The notes beneath the pieces were generated by a model that saw only the letters and a program-made list of their open reading frames with translations, was not told the origin of the DNA and ran no database searches. Positions 1 to 37,770 of a DNA stretch of 64,000 nucleotides are shown piece after piece (the first letter of the stretch is position 1; every line of letters starts with the position of its first letter). This DNA is from an uncultured Bacteroidia bacterium (GTDB lineage: Bacteria; Bacteroidota; Bacteroidia; Bacteroidales; UBA932). The stretch lies in assembly GCA_902789395.1 (NCBI GenBank), contig CADANY010000005.1:124001-188000 (forward strand), read 5' to 3'. Position numbers and translations under genes: made by a program.

Positions 1-100
1 CCCAAGAATCAGAGATTCTCGGGGACCCCCCGCTTAGGGCCCCTCCCTCTTATAGTGCCGAGGGTGGCATAGGTTTCAGAGGGGAAAGGCTTCCTTCGGA
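1..100 (-). repeat. Structured palindromic element, copy 1 (cut by window edge)
   Basis: This is the first of six related elements. Read on the minus strand, it has an inner arm ending in GAAACC (forward 72-77), a small TGCC/GGCA hairpin with loop ACCCTC, then TAAGAGGGAGGGG. After that come a perfect hairpin (forward 20-24 with 28-32, CGGGG/CCCCG) and another (forward 5-10 with 14-19, AGAATC/GATTCT). The second long arm would lie beyond base 1, so arm pairing cannot be tested. It lies just downstream of the upp stop codon, in the same sense as upp, so it would form the 3' end of that transcript. Its last hairpin resembles that of the truB copy rather than those of the other four. Confidence 0.75.
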
Positions 101-11920: not shown

Positions 11921-12041
11921 GTACAGGAGAGAGGGGCAGGGCCCTGAAACCGTCACTCCGTGACCCCTCCCTGAAGGGCCCCTCCCTCTTACAGTGCCGA
12001 GGGTGGCATGGGTTTCAGGTCCCTGCCCCTCTCCCCTGTAC
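11921..12041 (-). repeat. Structured palindromic element, copy 2 (between ftcD and hutU)
   Basis: Two 31-nt arms (11921-11951 and 12011-12041) pair at 29 of 31 positions. The 59-nt core between them, read on the minus strand, has the TGCC/GGCA hairpin with loop ACCCTC, the TAAGAGGGAGGGG strand, a CCCT/AGGG hairpin and a GTCAC/GTGAC hairpin. It lies 9 nt after the ftcD stop codon and 15 nt before the hutU ATG, antisense to the operon. In the mRNA it would form one long branched hairpin between two cistrons. Confidence 0.85.
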
Positions 12042-15562: not shown

Positions 15563-15697
15563 TTTCGGGGGACAGGGGGTATTCACCCGAAATCCATGGC
15601 TACCCTCGGCCATGTAAGAGGGAGGGGCCCGGCCGGCAGACCGGGAGGGGTCGGAGCGAAGCGGAGACGATTTCGGGGAATACCCCTGCTCCCGAAA
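15563..15697 (+). repeat. Structured palindromic element, copy 3 (between hutH and hutI)
   Basis: Arms of 31 and 28 nt (15563-15593 and 15670-15697) pair imperfectly but extensively. The core has the CATGGCT/GGCCATG hairpin with loop ACCCTC, then TAAGAGGGAGGGG, a CCCGG/CCGGG hairpin and a last hairpin closed by GTC/GAC around GC-GAA-GC. It lies in the sense direction of the operon, opposite to copy 2. It ends 23 nt before the hutI start codon and so could influence hutI translation or mRNA stability. Confidence 0.85.
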
Positions 15698-19457: not shown

Positions 19458-20546
19458 ATGTCGGAATATCATACTCCGGTGATGCTCGATGAAAGCATTA
19501 CGGCGCTGATTACAAATCCACAAGGTACATACGCAGACTGCACTTTCGGAGGCGGTGGGCACACCGCTGAGATACTTTCACGCTTACAAGATGGCGGACG
19601 CGTCATCGCCTTCGATCGTGACAGTGATGCTCTTTCCAACGCCCCTGACGATCCCCGTCTGACGCTGGTCCACAATAACTTCCGCTTTATCGAGAACTAC
19701 GCCGAACTCTTCCGCCGCGAAGAGCCCGGGAGGAGGGTATTCTCCTCCGAACCCATGGCCACCCTCGACCATGTAAGAGGGAGGGGTCCGGTTTGCCGGG
19801 AGGGGTCGGAGCGAAGCGAAGACGGTTCGGAGGGGAATACCCTCCTCCCGGGAACCCCGGAAGTATTCGACGGAATTCTGGCGGATCTGGGGGTCTCTTC
19901 GCATCAGTTCGATACGGCCGAACGCGGTTTTTCCTTCCGGTACGACGCTCCGCTTGACATGCGGATGGGGCGGGAATCGTCAATAACGGCTGCCGATATC
20001 GTCAACACACGCTCCCAGGAAGACCTGGAGCGTATCCTGCGGCTTTATGGCGAAGTGGATGGAGCCCGGAACATCGCCCGGCTTATCGTCGCCGCCCGCG
20101 AAAAGGAAGAAATCCGGACGACCGGTGATCTTGACAGGGCAATAGAGAAAGCGCTGCCGAAAATGGCAGCGCACAAACAGCTCGCAAAGATCTACCAGGC
20201 CCTCCGCATCGAGGTCAATCAGGAAATGCGCTCCCTGGAGAAATTCCTCGACGGAGCAGCCCGGTGTCTCAAGCCCGGAGGACGCCTCGTCGTCATTACC
20301 TATCATAGCCTGGAGGACCGGATGGTCAAGAATTTCATCCGTACCGGCAACGTAGAAGGAAAAGAAGAGAAGGATCTTTTCGGACGTATCCATACGCCTC
20401 TTGTTTCTTCTCTTCGGAAGCCGCTCACCCCGGGCGAGGCGGAAATTGCAGGAAATACGAGGGCGCGGAGCGCAAAACTGAGGGTTGCGGAGAAACCCCT
20501 CCCTGACGGTCAGGGAGACAGGAAAGAATGGAGGAAGCAGGCATGA
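19458..20546 (+). CDS. rsmH: 16S rRNA m4C1402 methyltransferase with an in-frame repeat insertion
   Basis: It methylates N4 of C1402 in the decoding centre of 16S rRNA. The SAM-binding motif is at the N-terminus (DCTFGGGGHTAEIL), and ILADLGVSSHQFD and PLDMRMG are conserved. The protein has 362 residues against about 300-320 for relatives. The extra ~43 residues (about 90-132, including SSEPMATLDHVRGRG) are encoded by copy 4 of the structured repeat, just before the strand leading to DGILADLGVSS. Flanking sequence reads as normal RsmH, so the insert probably forms a surface loop and the protein stays active. The stop codon overlaps the ftsL start (ATGA). Confidence 0.94.
   Translation: MSEYHTPVMLDESITALITNPQGTYADCTFGGGGHTAEILSRLQDGGRVIAFDRDSDALSNAPDDPRLTLVHNNFRFIENYAELFRREEPGRRVFSSEPMATLDHVRGRGPVCREGSERSEDGSEGNTLLPGTPEVFDGILADLGVSSHQFDTAERGFSFRYDAPLDMRMGRESSITAADIVNTRSQEDLERILRLYGEVDGARNIARLIVAAREKEEIRTTGDLDRAIEKALPKMAAHKQLAKIYQALRIEVNQEMRSLEKFLDGAARCLKPGGRLVVITYHSLEDRMVKNFIRTGNVEGKEEKDLFGRIHTPLVSSLRKPLTPGEAEIAGNTRARSAKLRVAEKPLPDGQGDRKEWRKQA
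19725..19852 (+). repeat. Structured palindromic element, copy 4 (inside rsmH)
   Basis: Two 29-nt arms (19725-19753 and 19824-19852) pair at 28 of 29 positions, and the single difference is a G-T type pair. The 70-nt core has the CATGG/CCATG hairpin with loop ACCCTC, the TAAGAGGGAGGGG strand, a CCGG/CCGG hairpin and a terminal hairpin closed by GTC/GAC. It lies in the sense direction of rsmH. The frame used reads GAA-CCC-ATG-GCC-ACC and so avoids the TAA that follows the first hairpin. Confidence 0.9.
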
Positions 20547-20889: not shown

Positions 20890-23016
20890 ATGGCAAAACA
20901 GCGTAAGAGAGTAAAGGAGAAAGCGCTTCTTGGAAAGGACAGGGTGGGATTCATCCTGGACGCCACGTATGCGTTCGTTCTTCTGCTGTCCGCCCTGATT
21001 TTTGTCAAGATTATCTATATCCAGCTGACCTACAAGGTTGATCCCCGGGTGGAGAACCTCTTCCGTCCGACTGTGACCAAACAGATCGACATGCCGAAAC
21101 GCGGGGCCATCCTGGCTTCGGACGGAAAGATTCTCGCGATCTCGACACCGGTCTACCAGATCTATATGGACTGCGCTATCCAGCGCGACGTTTTCAGGCA
21201 GGATCCTGAGAAGGGCGGGCTGAAAGAGCAGGAATGGAGGGATGAGGCAAAAGAACTTTCGAAAGGACTTGCCGCCATCTTCCAGGACAGGACCGCCGAG
21301 CAGTATTACCAGTTCATCCTAGCCAAACGGGAAGCCGATAAGCACTACGAGAAAATCGGGAAACCGGTCGACCATGCGACCCTTCAGCAAATCAAGGCCC
21401 TGCCTCTTTTCCGGAAAGGGCCCAACAAAGGTGGACTGATCTACAAAACCCTCGACAGCCGCCAGTATCCTTATGGAGCCATCGCCCGCCGGACGATCGG
21501 ATACGTAAAGGACAATTCCAACTCCAACGGCAACAATCTCATCGGCATCGAAGGGCGGTTCAATTATGAACTTCACGGCAAAGAGGGCCATGCATGGCTC
21601 CGGAAGGGAGAGAAAAACAACCGGATCCACAACTTCGACAGCACGGCCGTCAAGGCCGTTGACGGCAACGATGTTCGGACAACGCTGAATATTGACCTGC
21701 AGGACATTGCCGACCGGGCGCTGCGGAAGAACATCCAGGATGAAGAACGGATCAGCGGGGCCTGCGCCATCCTGATGGAAGTAGAGACCGGGGCCATCCG
21801 CGCGCTGGTCAATCTCCAACGGGACACGACGGTGGAAGGCCATCCCCTTTCAGAACGGATGAACCTGGCTATCAGCCAGATCGGCGAACCGGGTTCTGTC
21901 TTCAAGACGGTAACCCTGACCAGCGTCATCGAGGACGGATATGTCCATTCCGTCGACGAGACGGTCCCGACCTTCCGGGGCAATCTTCCCGGCTATTCCC
22001 GCGTCCGGACCGATCCCCATATCGTAGACTGGGAAGACAGTACCCACCGGAAAGAGATTCCGATCAAGCGGGGCCTGGAGATTTCTTCCAACTACGTATT
22101 CGCCTATCTGGCGACCAAGTACTACGAATCCCACCCGAAGAACTTCTACGACAAGATCTACCGGTATAAACTCGGAGAAAAATTCGATTTCGACATTGAC
22201 GGTCTCGGGACGCCGCAGGTCGTCACGCCGGACAACCCCTATTGGGAAAAGACCTCTCTGGCAACCGCCGGTTACGGCTATTCCATCGCCGTTACCCCCA
22301 TGCACCTGATTACCTTCTACAACGCGATCGCCAACGACGGGAAGATGATGCGGCCCTATCTGGTCGAAGATGTAGAGAAAGACGGAAAGATCCTTCGGAA
22401 ATACGGTCCGGGGATCCTCGGAAACATCTGCTCGAAAGCGACAGCGGATACCGTTACGCGGGCCCTCAAGGGTGTTCCGCAGTACGGTACCGCGAAAAAG
22501 CTCCGCCGCGCCAAACTGCAGGTTGCCGGTAAGACCGGAACGGCCCAGGTCGCCCTCCAGGCGGAAGACAAGCCCCGGAAGGGAGATCAGTACCATGACG
22601 AGCGGGGACGCAAGAAGAACCAGGGAACCTTTGTCGGCTTCTTCCCCGCCGACAACCCGAAATATTCCATCCTCGTGACCGTTTATTCCCGTCTGTCGCT
22701 GGGCAGTTTCTATGGAGGAGACGCTCCCGCCGCGACCGTCCGGGAAATCGTCGACGCCATCTATTCGATGGATACGACCTGCGGTGAAACGCTCCGAAGG
22801 GACGGAGCCCTTCCCGTCATGGAGGTCAGGGAAGCCGAAACGGCGGAAGGCAAAGTTCCGGACGTCAAGGGCTTCGGGCTGATCGACGCCATCTACGCCA
22901 TCGAAAACAGCGGGTACCGCTGCGCCTATGAAGGCAGCGGACACGTCGTCTCACAGTCCCCTTCCGGAGGGGCAGCTTTGAAAAACGGAGAAACCATAAC
23001 GTTGAAACTGAAATGA
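20890..23016 (+). CDS. ftsI: Division-specific peptidoglycan transpeptidase (PBP3) with PASTA domain
   Basis: This septal class B penicillin-binding protein of 708 residues has a cytoplasmic N-terminus and one membrane helix (FVLLLSALIFVKIIYIQL). A dimerisation domain is followed by a transpeptidase domain with the active-site motif SVFK (S336-K339), the SSN motif in EISSNYVFAY and KTG in VAGKTGTAQ. A C-terminal PASTA domain covers the last ~65 residues (VPDVKGFGLIDAIYAIENSG). Its stop codon overlaps the murE start (ATGA). Confidence 0.94.
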   Translation: MAKQRKRVKEKALLGKDRVGFILDATYAFVLLLSALIFVKIIYIQLTYKVDPRVENLFRPTVTKQIDMPKRGAILASDGKILAISTPVYQIYMDCAIQRDVFRQDPEKGGLKEQEWRDEAKELSKGLAAIFQDRTAEQYYQFILAKREADKHYEKIGKPVDHATLQQIKALPLFRKGPNKGGLIYKTLDSRQYPYGAIARRTIGYVKDNSNSNGNNLIGIEGRFNYELHGKEGHAWLRKGEKNNRIHNFDSTAVKAVDGNDVRTTLNIDLQDIADRALRKNIQDEERISGACAILMEVETGAIRALVNLQRDTTVEGHPLSERMNLAISQIGEPGSVFKTVTLTSVIEDGYVHSVDETVPTFRGNLPGYSRVRTDPHIVDWEDSTHRKEIPIKRGLEISSNYVFAYLATKYYESHPKNFYDKIYRYKLGEKFDFDIDGLGTPQVVTPDNPYWEKTSLATAGYGYSIAVTPMHLITFYNAIANDGKMMRPYLVEDVEKDGKILRKYGPGILGNICSKATADTVTRALKGVPQYGTAKKLRRAKLQVAGKTGTAQVALQAEDKPRKGDQYHDERGRKKNQGTFVGFFPADNPKYSILVTVYSRLSLGSFYGGDAPAATVREIVDAIYSMDTTCGETLRRDGALPVMEVREAETAEGKVPDVKGFGLIDAIYAIENSGYRCAYEGSGHVVSQSPSGGAALKNGETITLKLK

Positions 23017-24587
23017 AACTGAGAGAGATTATAGAGAATACAGGGGTTCTCCGGGTTACCGGAGATCTGGAACGGGAGATCGTTTCCATCACCGCCGACT
23101 CAAGGCAGGTCGTTCCTGGCTGCCTGTTCATCGCCGTAAAGGGATTCGCCAGCGACGGACATGCCTATATCGCCTCTGCCCTCGAAAAAGGAGCCGCCGC
23201 CATCCTCTTCGATGATCCGCAAGCCCTACCGGCGGCGAAGGGAGGTAATTCCTCCGAACCCATGGCCACCCTCGGCCATGTAAGAGGGAGGGGCCCGGCC
23301 GACGGCCGGGAGGGGTCACAGAGTGACGGTTCGGAGGGATTACCTCCCTCCTCCGCCGGCGCTTCCTGGATTCAGGTCGAACACTCCCGCCACGCCCTTG
23401 GCATCGCCGCAGACAATTTCTACGGCCACCCCTCCTCCAAACTCACCCTCGTCGGCATCACCGGTACCAACGGAAAGACCACGACCGTCACCCTCCTCTA
23501 CCACCTCTTCATGGGCCTCGGATACAACTGCGGACTCCTCTCGACCATTGCCAACTACGTCGGTGAGAAACGGACGGAGACGGAGAACACGACTGCCGAT
23601 CCGATCACGATGGGCAGGCTCATGGCAGAGATGGTCGAAGCCGGCTGCGAATACTGTTTCATGGAAGTCAGTTCGATCGGTGTCGAGCAGGAAAGAATCG
23701 CCGGACTGCGCTTCCGCGCCGGAATCTTTTCGAACCTCACCCATGACCACCTGGACTACCACAAGACCTTCGCAGAATACCTGCGTTGCAAGAAACTGTT
23801 CTTCGACAATCTCCCGCAGGATGCTTTCGCCATCACGAATATCGACGACCGGAACGGCCTCGTAATGGTCCAGAACACAAAAGCCAAGATTGTGACCTAC
23901 TCCTGCCGGAGCCTTGCGGACCACACCGCACGGATCCTCGAAGAGAGCTTCGAAGGAATGCTGCTCCGGCTGGACGGACAGGAAGCATGGACCCGGCTGA
24001 TCGGCCGGCACAATGCCTATAATATCCTCGCTATTTATACGACGGCTGTCTGCCTCGGCGCCGATCCGACCGAAACCCTTGTTGCGATCAGCAAACTCGC
24101 CTCCGCTCCCGGCCGGCTCGAGACACTCCGCGGCCCCCGCGACCTCTCCGTCGTCATCGATTACGCCCATACGCCGGATGCCCTGGAGAATGTGCTGGGA
24201 ACCCTACGCGAAATCGCTCCGGAGAAACAGCTCGTCTGCCTGTTCGGATGCGGCGGAGACCGCGACCGGACCAAGCGTCCCGAGATGGCGGCCATTGCCG
24301 AAAAGATGGCCGACCGTCTGGTCATTACTTCCGACAACTGCCGGACCGAGAATCCGGAAGCCATCATCGAAGAAATCAAGACCGGACTGACCAACAAGGG
24401 ACTGGCCAAGTCCATCAGCATCTCCGACAGGAGGGAAGCGATCCGGACGGCCATCCTGACGGCCGCTGACGGTGCCACCATCCTCCTTGCCGGGAAAGGT
24501 CACGAGACCTACCAGATCATCGGCAGGGAAAAACACCACTTTGACGAAAAAGAAATTGTTACTGAAACCTTCAATCTGATCCGATAA
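23013..24587 (+). CDS. murE: UDP-MurNAc-tripeptide synthetase with an in-frame repeat insertion
   Basis: This cytosolic Mur ligase adds the third stem-peptide residue to UDP-MurNAc-L-Ala-D-Glu. The ATP-binding motif TGTNGKTTT lies at about residues 150-158. The amino-acid selectivity loop reads DNCRTENP in place of the DNPR of diaminopimelate-adding enzymes, keeping the Arg but changing the Pro. The protein has 524 residues, about 44 more than relatives. The excess (about residues 73-116, including SSEPMATLGHVRGRG) is encoded by copy 5 of the structured repeat. It sits in the N-terminal domain between ILFDDPQALP and SWIQVEHSRHALG, away from the active site. Confidence 0.94.
   Translation: MKLREIIENTGVLRVTGDLEREIVSITADSRQVVPGCLFIAVKGFASDGHAYIASALEKGAAAILFDDPQALPAAKGGNSSEPMATLGHVRGRGPADGREGSQSDGSEGLPPSSAGASWIQVEHSRHALGIAADNFYGHPSSKLTLVGITGTNGKTTTVTLLYHLFMGLGYNCGLLSTIANYVGEKRTETENTTADPITMGRLMAEMVEAGCEYCFMEVSSIGVEQERIAGLRFRAGIFSNLTHDHLDYHKTFAEYLRCKKLFFDNLPQDAFAITNIDDRNGLVMVQNTKAKIVTYSCRSLADHTARILEESFEGMLLRLDGQEAWTRLIGRHNAYNILAIYTTAVCLGADPTETLVAISKLASAPGRLETLRGPRDLSVVIDYAHTPDALENVLGTLREIAPEKQLVCLFGCGGDRDRTKRPEMAAIAEKMADRLVITSDNCRTENPEAIIEEIKTGLTNKGLAKSISISDRREAIRTAILTAADGATILLAGKGHETYQIIGREKHHFDEKEIVTETFNLIR
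23229..23359 (+). repeat. Structured palindromic element, copy 5 (inside murE)
   Basis: Arms 23229-23260 and 23328-23359 (32 nt each) pair at 29 of 32 positions. This copy shows the core most clearly. Hairpin 1 is CATGGCC/GGCCATG (23261-23280); its loop CCCTC (23269-23273) can pair with GAGGG (23284-23288). Hairpin 2 is CCCGGCC/GGCCGGG (23294-23310). Hairpin 3 is GTCAC/GTGAC (23315-23327). It lies in the sense direction of murE and is read in the same frame as the rsmH copy. Confidence 0.92.
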
Positions 24588-36350: not shown

Positions 36351-37343
36351 TTATTCGGATAGAAGGAATAGGACTTCCTCAAGGGAGAGGGCGTTATCGA
36401 TGGAGTAGGCTCCGCTGCGGGTCCGGACAAGCGAGTCGAGGTGCGCTCCGCTGCCTAGGGCTTCGCCGAGATCGCGGGCGAAGGCGCGGATATAAGTGCC
36501 TTTACTGCAGGCGATGCGGATCCGCGCGAGAGGAAGGCCCTGAAGATCAGACGTATCCGCGACATGGATCCGAGAGGATGCAGTCCCTTCAGACGGCATG
36601 TTTCCGGAGAGGGGGTCCCTCCTGAAACCTGTGGCCGCCCGTGGCCTCATGAACGGGAGGGGCCCGGAATCGAAGGGAAAGGTGGACGATAGTTCACTAT
36701 CGGACAACGGATCTGAGATTCTGGGAGGGACTTGGGTTTCAGGAGGGACCCCCTCTCCGGAAACAGAGGCTGCTTCGAAGGAGAGCAGTTCCAAGGCTGA
36801 AATCTCGATTGTCGAACGATGAAGCGTCTCCAGGGCGGCGGCATCGAAATCCTCCCCTGCCGATTCGCCCCGCTGCACCTTCCGGTACATCCTACGGGCC
36901 ATCTCATAGGCCCGCACTCCATCGACAGACTTCGCGCTGAAAAGCGGGGCGACCTGCTCCTGAACGCCGAGGAAAGAAAGCAGGACGGCCTCTACGGAGT
37001 CCTTTGTAATATGTTCATAGGGGAAACGGCGGTCCACCTCTTTCTCAAGATCATACGAGGGAGTCGTCGCACCGAAACGGATGCCGGCCACGTACTCTTT
37101 GTCATGGGCTTGGAGAGCCTCCGCCCGTTTGGTCGCATTACCGATGCAGACGAGCAGTATTCCCGTTGCGAGCGGATCCAGGGTCCCGGCATGGCCGACT
37201 TTCAGGTTCTTCTTGCCAAAGTGCCGGATGGCAGCGTATTTGACCTTCCGGATTACGTCGGCGGAAGTCCACCGGTACGGCTTGTCAACAGGCAGGACAA
37301 TTCCGTCCGGATAGTCGTCGATGGACCTGGAGAACTTATCCAT
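36351..37343 (-). CDS. truB: tRNA pseudouridine-55 synthase with an in-frame repeat insertion
   Basis: It converts U55 to pseudouridine in the T loop of tRNAs. The catalytic Asp is in GHAGTLDPLATG, at about residues 50-60, and the RNA-binding motif is RIACSKGTYIRAFARDLG. The ATG at 37343 overlaps the end of rpiB by 8 nt; longer upstream starts fall within rpiB. The protein has 330 residues, while relatives have about 230-250. About 56 extra residues (~193-249, including FDSGPLPFMRPRAATGFRRD) are encoded by copy 6 of the structured repeat, read antisense. They lie between the strand ending ALELLSFE and RIACSKGTYIR. Both flanks look normal, so the enzyme is probably functional. Confidence 0.93.
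   Translation of the reverse strand: MDKFSRSIDDYPDGIVLPVDKPYRWTSADVIRKVKYAAIRHFGKKNLKVGHAGTLDPLATGILLVCIGNATKRAEALQAHDKEYVAGIRFGATTPSYDLEKEVDRRFPYEHITKDSVEAVLLSFLGVQEQVAPLFSAKSVDGVRAYEMARRMYRKVQRGESAGEDFDAAALETLHRSTIEISALELLSFEAASVSGEGVPPETQVPPRISDPLSDSELSSTFPFDSGPLPFMRPRAATGFRRDPLSGNMPSEGTASSRIHVADTSDLQGLPLARIRIACSKGTYIRAFARDLGEALGSGAHLDSLVRTRSGAYSIDNALSLEEVLFLLSE
36599..36765 (+). repeat. Structured palindromic element, copy 6 (inside truB, antisense)
   Basis: This is the largest copy, with perfect 31-nt arms (36599-36629 and 36735-36765). The 105-nt core starts with a GGCC/GGCC hairpin whose loop CCCGT (36638-36642) can pair with ACGGG (36653-36657). That replaces CCCTC/GAGGG of the other copies at the same positions. 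A perfect CGATAGT/ACTATCG hairpin follows (36687-36702), then GGATC/GATTC (36709-36721), which resembles the last hairpin of copy 1. It runs opposite to truB. Confidence 0.9.
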
Positions 37344-37770
37344 TGCAGGGGATCTTCGCGATCCGGCGGGCATGACGTCCGCCCTCGAAACCGGTCTCAA
37401 GCCAGGTATTCATGATCCGGACAGCCATCTGGTAAGAGATGAACCGGGCGGGCATGACGAGGACATTGGCATTGTTATGGGCCTTGACAAGACGCCCGAT
37501 TTCGCTGTTCCATGCCAGTCCGGCACGGATTCCCTGGTGTTTATTGAGCGTTATGGCCATCCCGTTCCCGGTACCGCAGAGGGCAATCCCGGCATCGACG
37601 GCGCCGCTCTCTACTGCGGCGGCCAGCGGGTGGGCGAAATCAGAATAATCTACGCTTACGTCGGAATCCGTTCCGAAATCGACGGTCTCATAGCCCTTGG
37701 ACTGCAGGAGACGGATAAGCTTTGTTTTGTAGGCATAGCCTGCATGGTCATTGCAAATACCGATTTTCAT
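37336..37770 (-). CDS. rpiB: Ribose-5-phosphate isomerase B
   Basis: This cytosolic enzyme interconverts ribose-5-phosphate and ribulose-5-phosphate in the pentose phosphate pathway. The 144-residue protein is the usual length for the RpiB/LacAB family. It starts IGICNDHAGYAYK and has the active-site Cys in IALCGTGNGMAI and the late NNANVLVMPARFIS. It lies 1 nt downstream of the HprK-like gene, and its last codons overlap the truB start. Confidence 0.95.
   Translation of the reverse strand: MKIGICNDHAGYAYKTKLIRLLQSKGYETVDFGTDSDVSVDYSDFAHPLAAAVESGAVDAGIALCGTGNGMAITLNKHQGIRAGLAWNSEIGRLVKAHNNANVLVMPARFISYQMAVRIMNTWLETGFEGGRHARRIAKIPCNG

Follow-up and report, generated by a model that had tools for sequence, protein, structure and literature searches.

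A palindromic, probably mobile repeat carried in frame by murE and other housekeeping genes in a Bacteroidales genus

Accounts of palindromic repeats residing within protein-coding sequences concern mainly Rickettsia and Wolbachia, both of them reduced intracellular bacteria. The palindromic elements of Rickettsia (RPE, especially RPE-1 to RPE-3) and Wolbachia (WPE) go back to Ogata et al. 2000, 2005, as relayed in PMC2229807, PMC10969869 and PMC3767692. The last of these reports that one gene region can hold different families, and a loss of repeat identity in Rickettsia elements is reported in PMC6649704. The element described here shares with RPE and WPE a palindrome of about 100–170 nt, tens of dispersed copies and frame-keeping insertion into unrelated conserved genes, which are left unbroken. 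It differs in its occurrence in Bacteroidales, its conserved and probably pseudoknotted core, its locus-specific arms and the inversion of its core at orthologous sites, and in contrast to Rickettsia elements its arms stay nearly perfect. Because lineage and core differ, we refrain from classing it with the RPE and treat it as a separate family that acts like RPE and WPE but has an invertible core and locus-specific arms. Near-perfect inverted repeats with dynamic gain and loss are also found in coding genes of Nematomorpha mitochondria, where the identity of the arms was attributed, as a proposal, to conversion or template switching (PMC6649704). Those palindromes are mitochondrial and not described as one repeated element, whereas here a family with a common core recurs throughout the genome.

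Two bacterial systems offer further parallels. MITEs containing open reading frames (ERIC, Correia/NEMIS and YPAL; PMC2229807) are likewise small non-autonomous hairpin repeats that fuse with genes in frame. Unlike these, the element has no terminal inverted repeat common to its copies, since the outer arm differs between them, and no clear target duplication, and no related autonomous element was found in a search for Y1 transposases. REP/RAYT systems (PMC3733652) also consist of dispersed palindromes and the genome does contain a RAYT gene, but this gene has its own palindrome and is not flanked by copies of the element, which is longer, often lies within genes and has a multibranched core.

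The window, which refers to the whole 64-kb stretch of DNA that was analyzed, contains the element in several genic and intergenic positions (Table 1), with five occurrences of the core string compared to 0.00 expected by chance. As proposed in an earlier note on this DNA, the copy in murE is located within the gene and in frame, comprising 131 nt that are open in the murE frame. Its arms of 32 nt each are spaced by 67 nt, and the predicted RNA fold of –91.8 kcal/mol (z = –8.2) was equalled by none of 200 shuffled sequences. The murE product matches PF01225, PF08245 and PF02875, the three Mur ligase domains, and its alignment to solved structures breaks at the insert in the N-terminal domain, at about residues 83–108. 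In a structure alignment of RsmH, query residues 81 to 135 replace only about 6–8 residues of 1wg8 and 3tka. Judged from these alignments, both insert positions are consistent with loops.

Table 1. Coordinates of the element in murE, its parts and further copies in the window.
Feature	Position	Strand	Remarks
Host gene murE	23013..24587	+	524 aa; about 43 residues from the element
Palindromic element in murE	23229..23359	+	in frame
Left arm, outer stem	23229..23260	+	91% complementary to 23328–23359
Core hairpin 1	23261..23280	+	CATGGCC-ACCCTC-GGCCATG
Proposed pseudoknot, murE copy	23284–23288 (GAGGG)	+	with loop CCCTC of hairpin 1
Core hairpin 2	23294..23310	+	CCCGGCC-GAC-GGCCGGG; AGGGG on either side
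Core hairpin 3	23316..23326	+	TCAC-AGA-GTGA
Right arm, outer stem	23328..23359	+	pairs with 23229–23260
rsmH copy	19725..19852	+	gene 19458–20546; in frame; orientation and frame of the murE copy
truB copy	36599..36765	+	gene 36351–37400 on –; in frame; core opposite to gene
Intergenic copy	15569..15693	+	between hutH-like and hutI-like genes
Intergenic copy	11921..12041	–	
Partial copy running past the left end of the window	1..94	–	whole copy at G000:C5:123949–124094

In order, the element consists of a left arm with a terminal GAAACC, hairpin 1 (loop ACCCTC), TAA, GAGGG, AGGGG, hairpin 2 (CCC..GGG), AGGGG, hairpin 3 and a right arm (beginning with GGTTTC). A partner of the GAGGG type for the CCCTC loop is present in 148 of 151 copies. 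We propose that loop and partner pair to form a pseudoknot in the core, as would fit the rare covariant variants CCCGT/ACGGG (truB, L030), found in the divergent truB copy of the window, and, by our own reading, CCCCC/GGGGG (G062); since most copies are invariant here, the pseudoknot stays a proposal. The arms, of 22–30 bp per copy, pair within each copy and differ greatly between copies. In an alignment of 11 copies, 18 of the 22 pairs of the outer stem have changed on both sides with 99% remaining paired and no G-U, a covariation equalled by 0 of 500 shuffles, and paired changes are also found between the arms of close orthologues. Pairs of the type G.T outnumber A.C by 110 to 23 in the arms of copies from relatives, whereas the own genome shows no such excess (17 to 14); the excess in the relatives' arms leaves room for either strand-level selection or a bias of the search. 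A subtype with an extra hairpin (GGGGTCCCCGAGAATCT..) inside hairpin 2 was observed at L016, L020 and L022 of the own genome.

A covariance model built on 11 copies (R1) detects about 32 distinct copies in the own genome, and the family is also found in BLAST searches. Of 101 species of the genus that were sampled, 74 carry the element, in a patchy distribution. In an order-wide sample, the only positive genomes besides its own were G226, with 5 copies, and G278, with 13. G226 (L353) belongs to another genus of the same family and G278 (L352) to another family, and both have the core architecture of the element. An exact-pattern scan of named genomes retrieved two metagenome-assembled genomes of Bacteroidales, one from yak rumen. 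Phage and plasmid collections and viral contigs contained no match, and spread by phage or plasmid was dropped as an explanation on that ground. Identity with an Rfam family was ruled out, since no Rfam covariance model matched at its gathering score and a second search yielded only hits at chance level.

Comparison of orthologous sites reveals copies in different states of gain, loss and rearrangement. In a close trio of genomes (G005, G061 and G062) and in G028, the site in the MTTase gene contains the element in G062, the element with inverted core in G028, a partial remnant in G061 (L297) and another repeat family in G005. At the site in the M20 gene, G061 carries the element, G062 a divergent member and G028 a repeat of another family. 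An intergenic site of G061 (L283) has retained joined arms only, a scar of core deletion. The GT2 gene is without element in G061 and carries it with the core in plus orientation in G005 and in minus orientation in G062, between nearly equal arms. By subtraction, the element adds 138 and 147 nt to the filled alleles, and each of these lengths is divisible by three. On the left, the outer arm corresponds to sequence of the element-free allele, and the outer arm on the right repeats it in inverted form, which fits an extension of the arms into host DNA by fold-back copying. This gene hints at a target-site duplication of 8–10 nt, where the empty allele of G061 is itself possibly a product of deletion, and none is clear from the comparison of the trio. 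In truB of G061, G062 and G005 (L206, L207 and L214), the arms are identical over 24 bp between flanks differing by about 10%, unlike in other orthologous sets.

In total, an inverted core between similar arms was found at five orthologous host sites (YgiQ, MurB, TruB, MTTase and GT2) in genomes that are mostly drafts, where a short-read assembler could flip the core between 26-bp repeats. At each of the five, the frame stays open and intact with the core in either orientation. Since the arms of unrelated copies differ widely, we favor inversion over independent insertion, with the strongest case at the YgiQ and GT2 sites, whose arms are near identical. The element is absent from murE and rsmH in the 29 other species aligned per gene, several of which have repeat-like peptides of unrelated sequence at these loops (SLDFARDD, SRDKPGNDG, IPGQAGNDG and SAQDDTLSEH). 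These loops thus appear to tolerate insertion repeatedly, as other repeat families are found there in other species. Seemingly, such families occupy the loops at L048 and L047 (murE) and at L076–L078 (rsmH).

The conserved core with its proposed pseudoknot, the very stable fold and the excess of G.U-type over A.C-type pairs in the arms of relatives would all be expected of a functional structured RNA, such as an attenuator, terminator or riboregulator, that is kept for its fold and tolerated in genes by chance. We consider this unlikely in light of the free and flipping orientation of the core relative to the host gene, the different presence in close relatives, an outer stem composed almost only of Watson-Crick pairs without G.U in the 11-copy alignment and the lack of a match in Rfam.

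With respect to its mobilization, the palindromic and dispersed nature of the element and the single RAYT-like gene of the own genome (G000:C2, L325:1933–3040) could suggest a REP moved by a resident Y1 transposase. RAYT-like Y1 transposases do exist in the genus, but 21 neighborhoods of such loci, the only transposase class that was sought, contained no element, and the element-rich genomes G004, G016, G027 and G066 are without a Y1 hit at E<=1e-5. The own RAYT-like gene is flanked by copies of ATATCGTCCCCCTAT, an unrelated palindrome that is likely its own REP. We regard mobilization by RAYT as very improbable and, given the lack of proximity and the separate palindrome, have dropped it.

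The frames used by genic copies bear on how the element came to reside in coding sequences. The peptides SSEPMATLGHVRGRG and SSEPMATLDHVRGRG read by the earlier note in murE and rsmH are both found with equal orientation and frame, and the peptide common to these two unrelated essential enzymes does stem from the element in both genes. The claimed sameness of orientation and frame thus holds for murE and rsmH but does not extend to truB, whose copy has the opposite core orientation and another frame, so that it covers two of the three genic copies in the window. The arm-to-arm lengths of these copies, 128, 131 and 167, are each 2 modulo 3 as noted, but the rule vanishes in a wider sample of 46 genic copies, which split 18:14:14, and we thus ascribe it to chance.

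For a broader view, we examined 156 copies with flanks and scanned their read-through open reading frames with Pfam. The copies from relatives were those with top scores in the covariance model, and decayed copies are therefore under-represented. About 52 of the 156 are in frame within Pfam-recognized, mostly housekeeping genes of 23 host families, a count that is approximate since some copies (L163, L164, L166, L194, L205, L206, L207 and L176) were assigned by similarity of the host flank to a scanned sibling, and whose members are non-independent where hosts recur across related species. Hosts include MurE, MurB, RsmH, TruA, TruB, TrmB, RibF, DapF, AroB, RecR, a TilS-like protein, M20 peptidase, radical SAM enzymes of the MiaB/RimO and YgiQ types and a THUMP-like protein. 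A copy outside the window (L007, G000:C5:216304–216422) is located between hisD and hisC in one 824-aa open reading frame; the two genes are separate in most sampled relatives, and in G001 a single frame spans both.

An anchor could be placed for 50 genic copies, in 21 of which the gene runs in the direction of the core and in 29 against it. The counts in the six frames (10, 10, 1, 5, 11 and 13) are compatible with those predicted from the openness of each frame in 95 non-genic copies (13.3, 8.2, 1.1, 9.1, 10.3 and 8.0; chi2 p = 0.29) and less so with uniform use (p = 0.036). In 30 copies, both flanks are open and coding on the same strand. When a frame was chosen for each flank separately, the two agreed in 26 of these copies, 25 of which are open through the element, the five exceptions being gene ends on inspection. 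Since the use of frames tracks openness and flanking frames agree, the data support a scenario in which the element inserts irrespective of frame and purifying selection acts afterwards, together with probable read-through translation. Selection for a stop-free frame, one of two explanations offered in the earlier note, is supported in this way. The other, insertion with preferred orientation and reading frame, had in its favor the agreement between murE and rsmH and now appears exceedingly improbable in view of the use of both orientations and all six frames, the opposite copy in truB and the opposite core orientations at the same sites in relatives. The note had counted equal use of all frames together with disrupted genes against its proposal; all frames and orientations are indeed used, but no clearly disrupted host gene was found among the 156 copies. 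Translational bypassing as in mitochondrial byps, where ribosomes would skip a very stable hairpin within essential genes, is hardly credible either, as it would require neither an open frame nor a length divisible by three, yet flank frames agree in 26 of the 30 copies above and 25 are open through the element.

Taken together, we assign a probability of about 0.77 to the element being a non-autonomous, MITE-like palindromic mobile repeat, which is tolerated in frame and whose core is flipped or deleted by recombination between its arms. Comparison of genomes establishes, at the level of sequence, that the element is dispersed, is read through in frame, has been gained or lost, has an inverted core at some sites and has left deletion scars. 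What we infer is that the inserts are translated, that recombination and template switching play a role and that a folded strand is moved in trans. Such an element would consist of a conserved folded core of about 60–70 nt between two long self-complementary arms, which, as a folded strand, might be moved by an enzyme acting in trans and insert into both intergenic DNA and genes. Copies in genes would survive where they add a multiple of three bases, provide a stop-free frame and fall into a tolerated loop, and because only these survive they would yield inert peptide inserts on translation, whatever their orientation and open frame. As the arms flank the core as inverted repeats, recombination between them, or fold-back replication, could flip or delete it, and template switching between arms may keep their pairing while the sequence drifts.

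A bolder view, which we consider highly unlikely, holds that the core inverts often enough to serve as a protein switch, providing one essential enzyme with two different peptide inserts in one population. A dedicated recombinase or fold-back replication would in this case drive a coding invertible cassette in housekeeping genes. In a keyword-searched open-access subset of the literature, we have not found a description of locus-specific arms in housekeeping genes between which a conserved core is inverted.

On the reading as a tolerated mobile repeat, the genus offers a natural experiment on how essential enzymes cope with inserts of about 40 residues and on the arms of a palindrome that stay matched while drifting. 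This Bacteroidales genus is large and diverse, its genomes carry up to tens of copies each, and the sample covers more than 20 host families and about a hundred species. From the inversion of the core between orthologous sites, recombination between the arms or fold-back replication could be read out directly.
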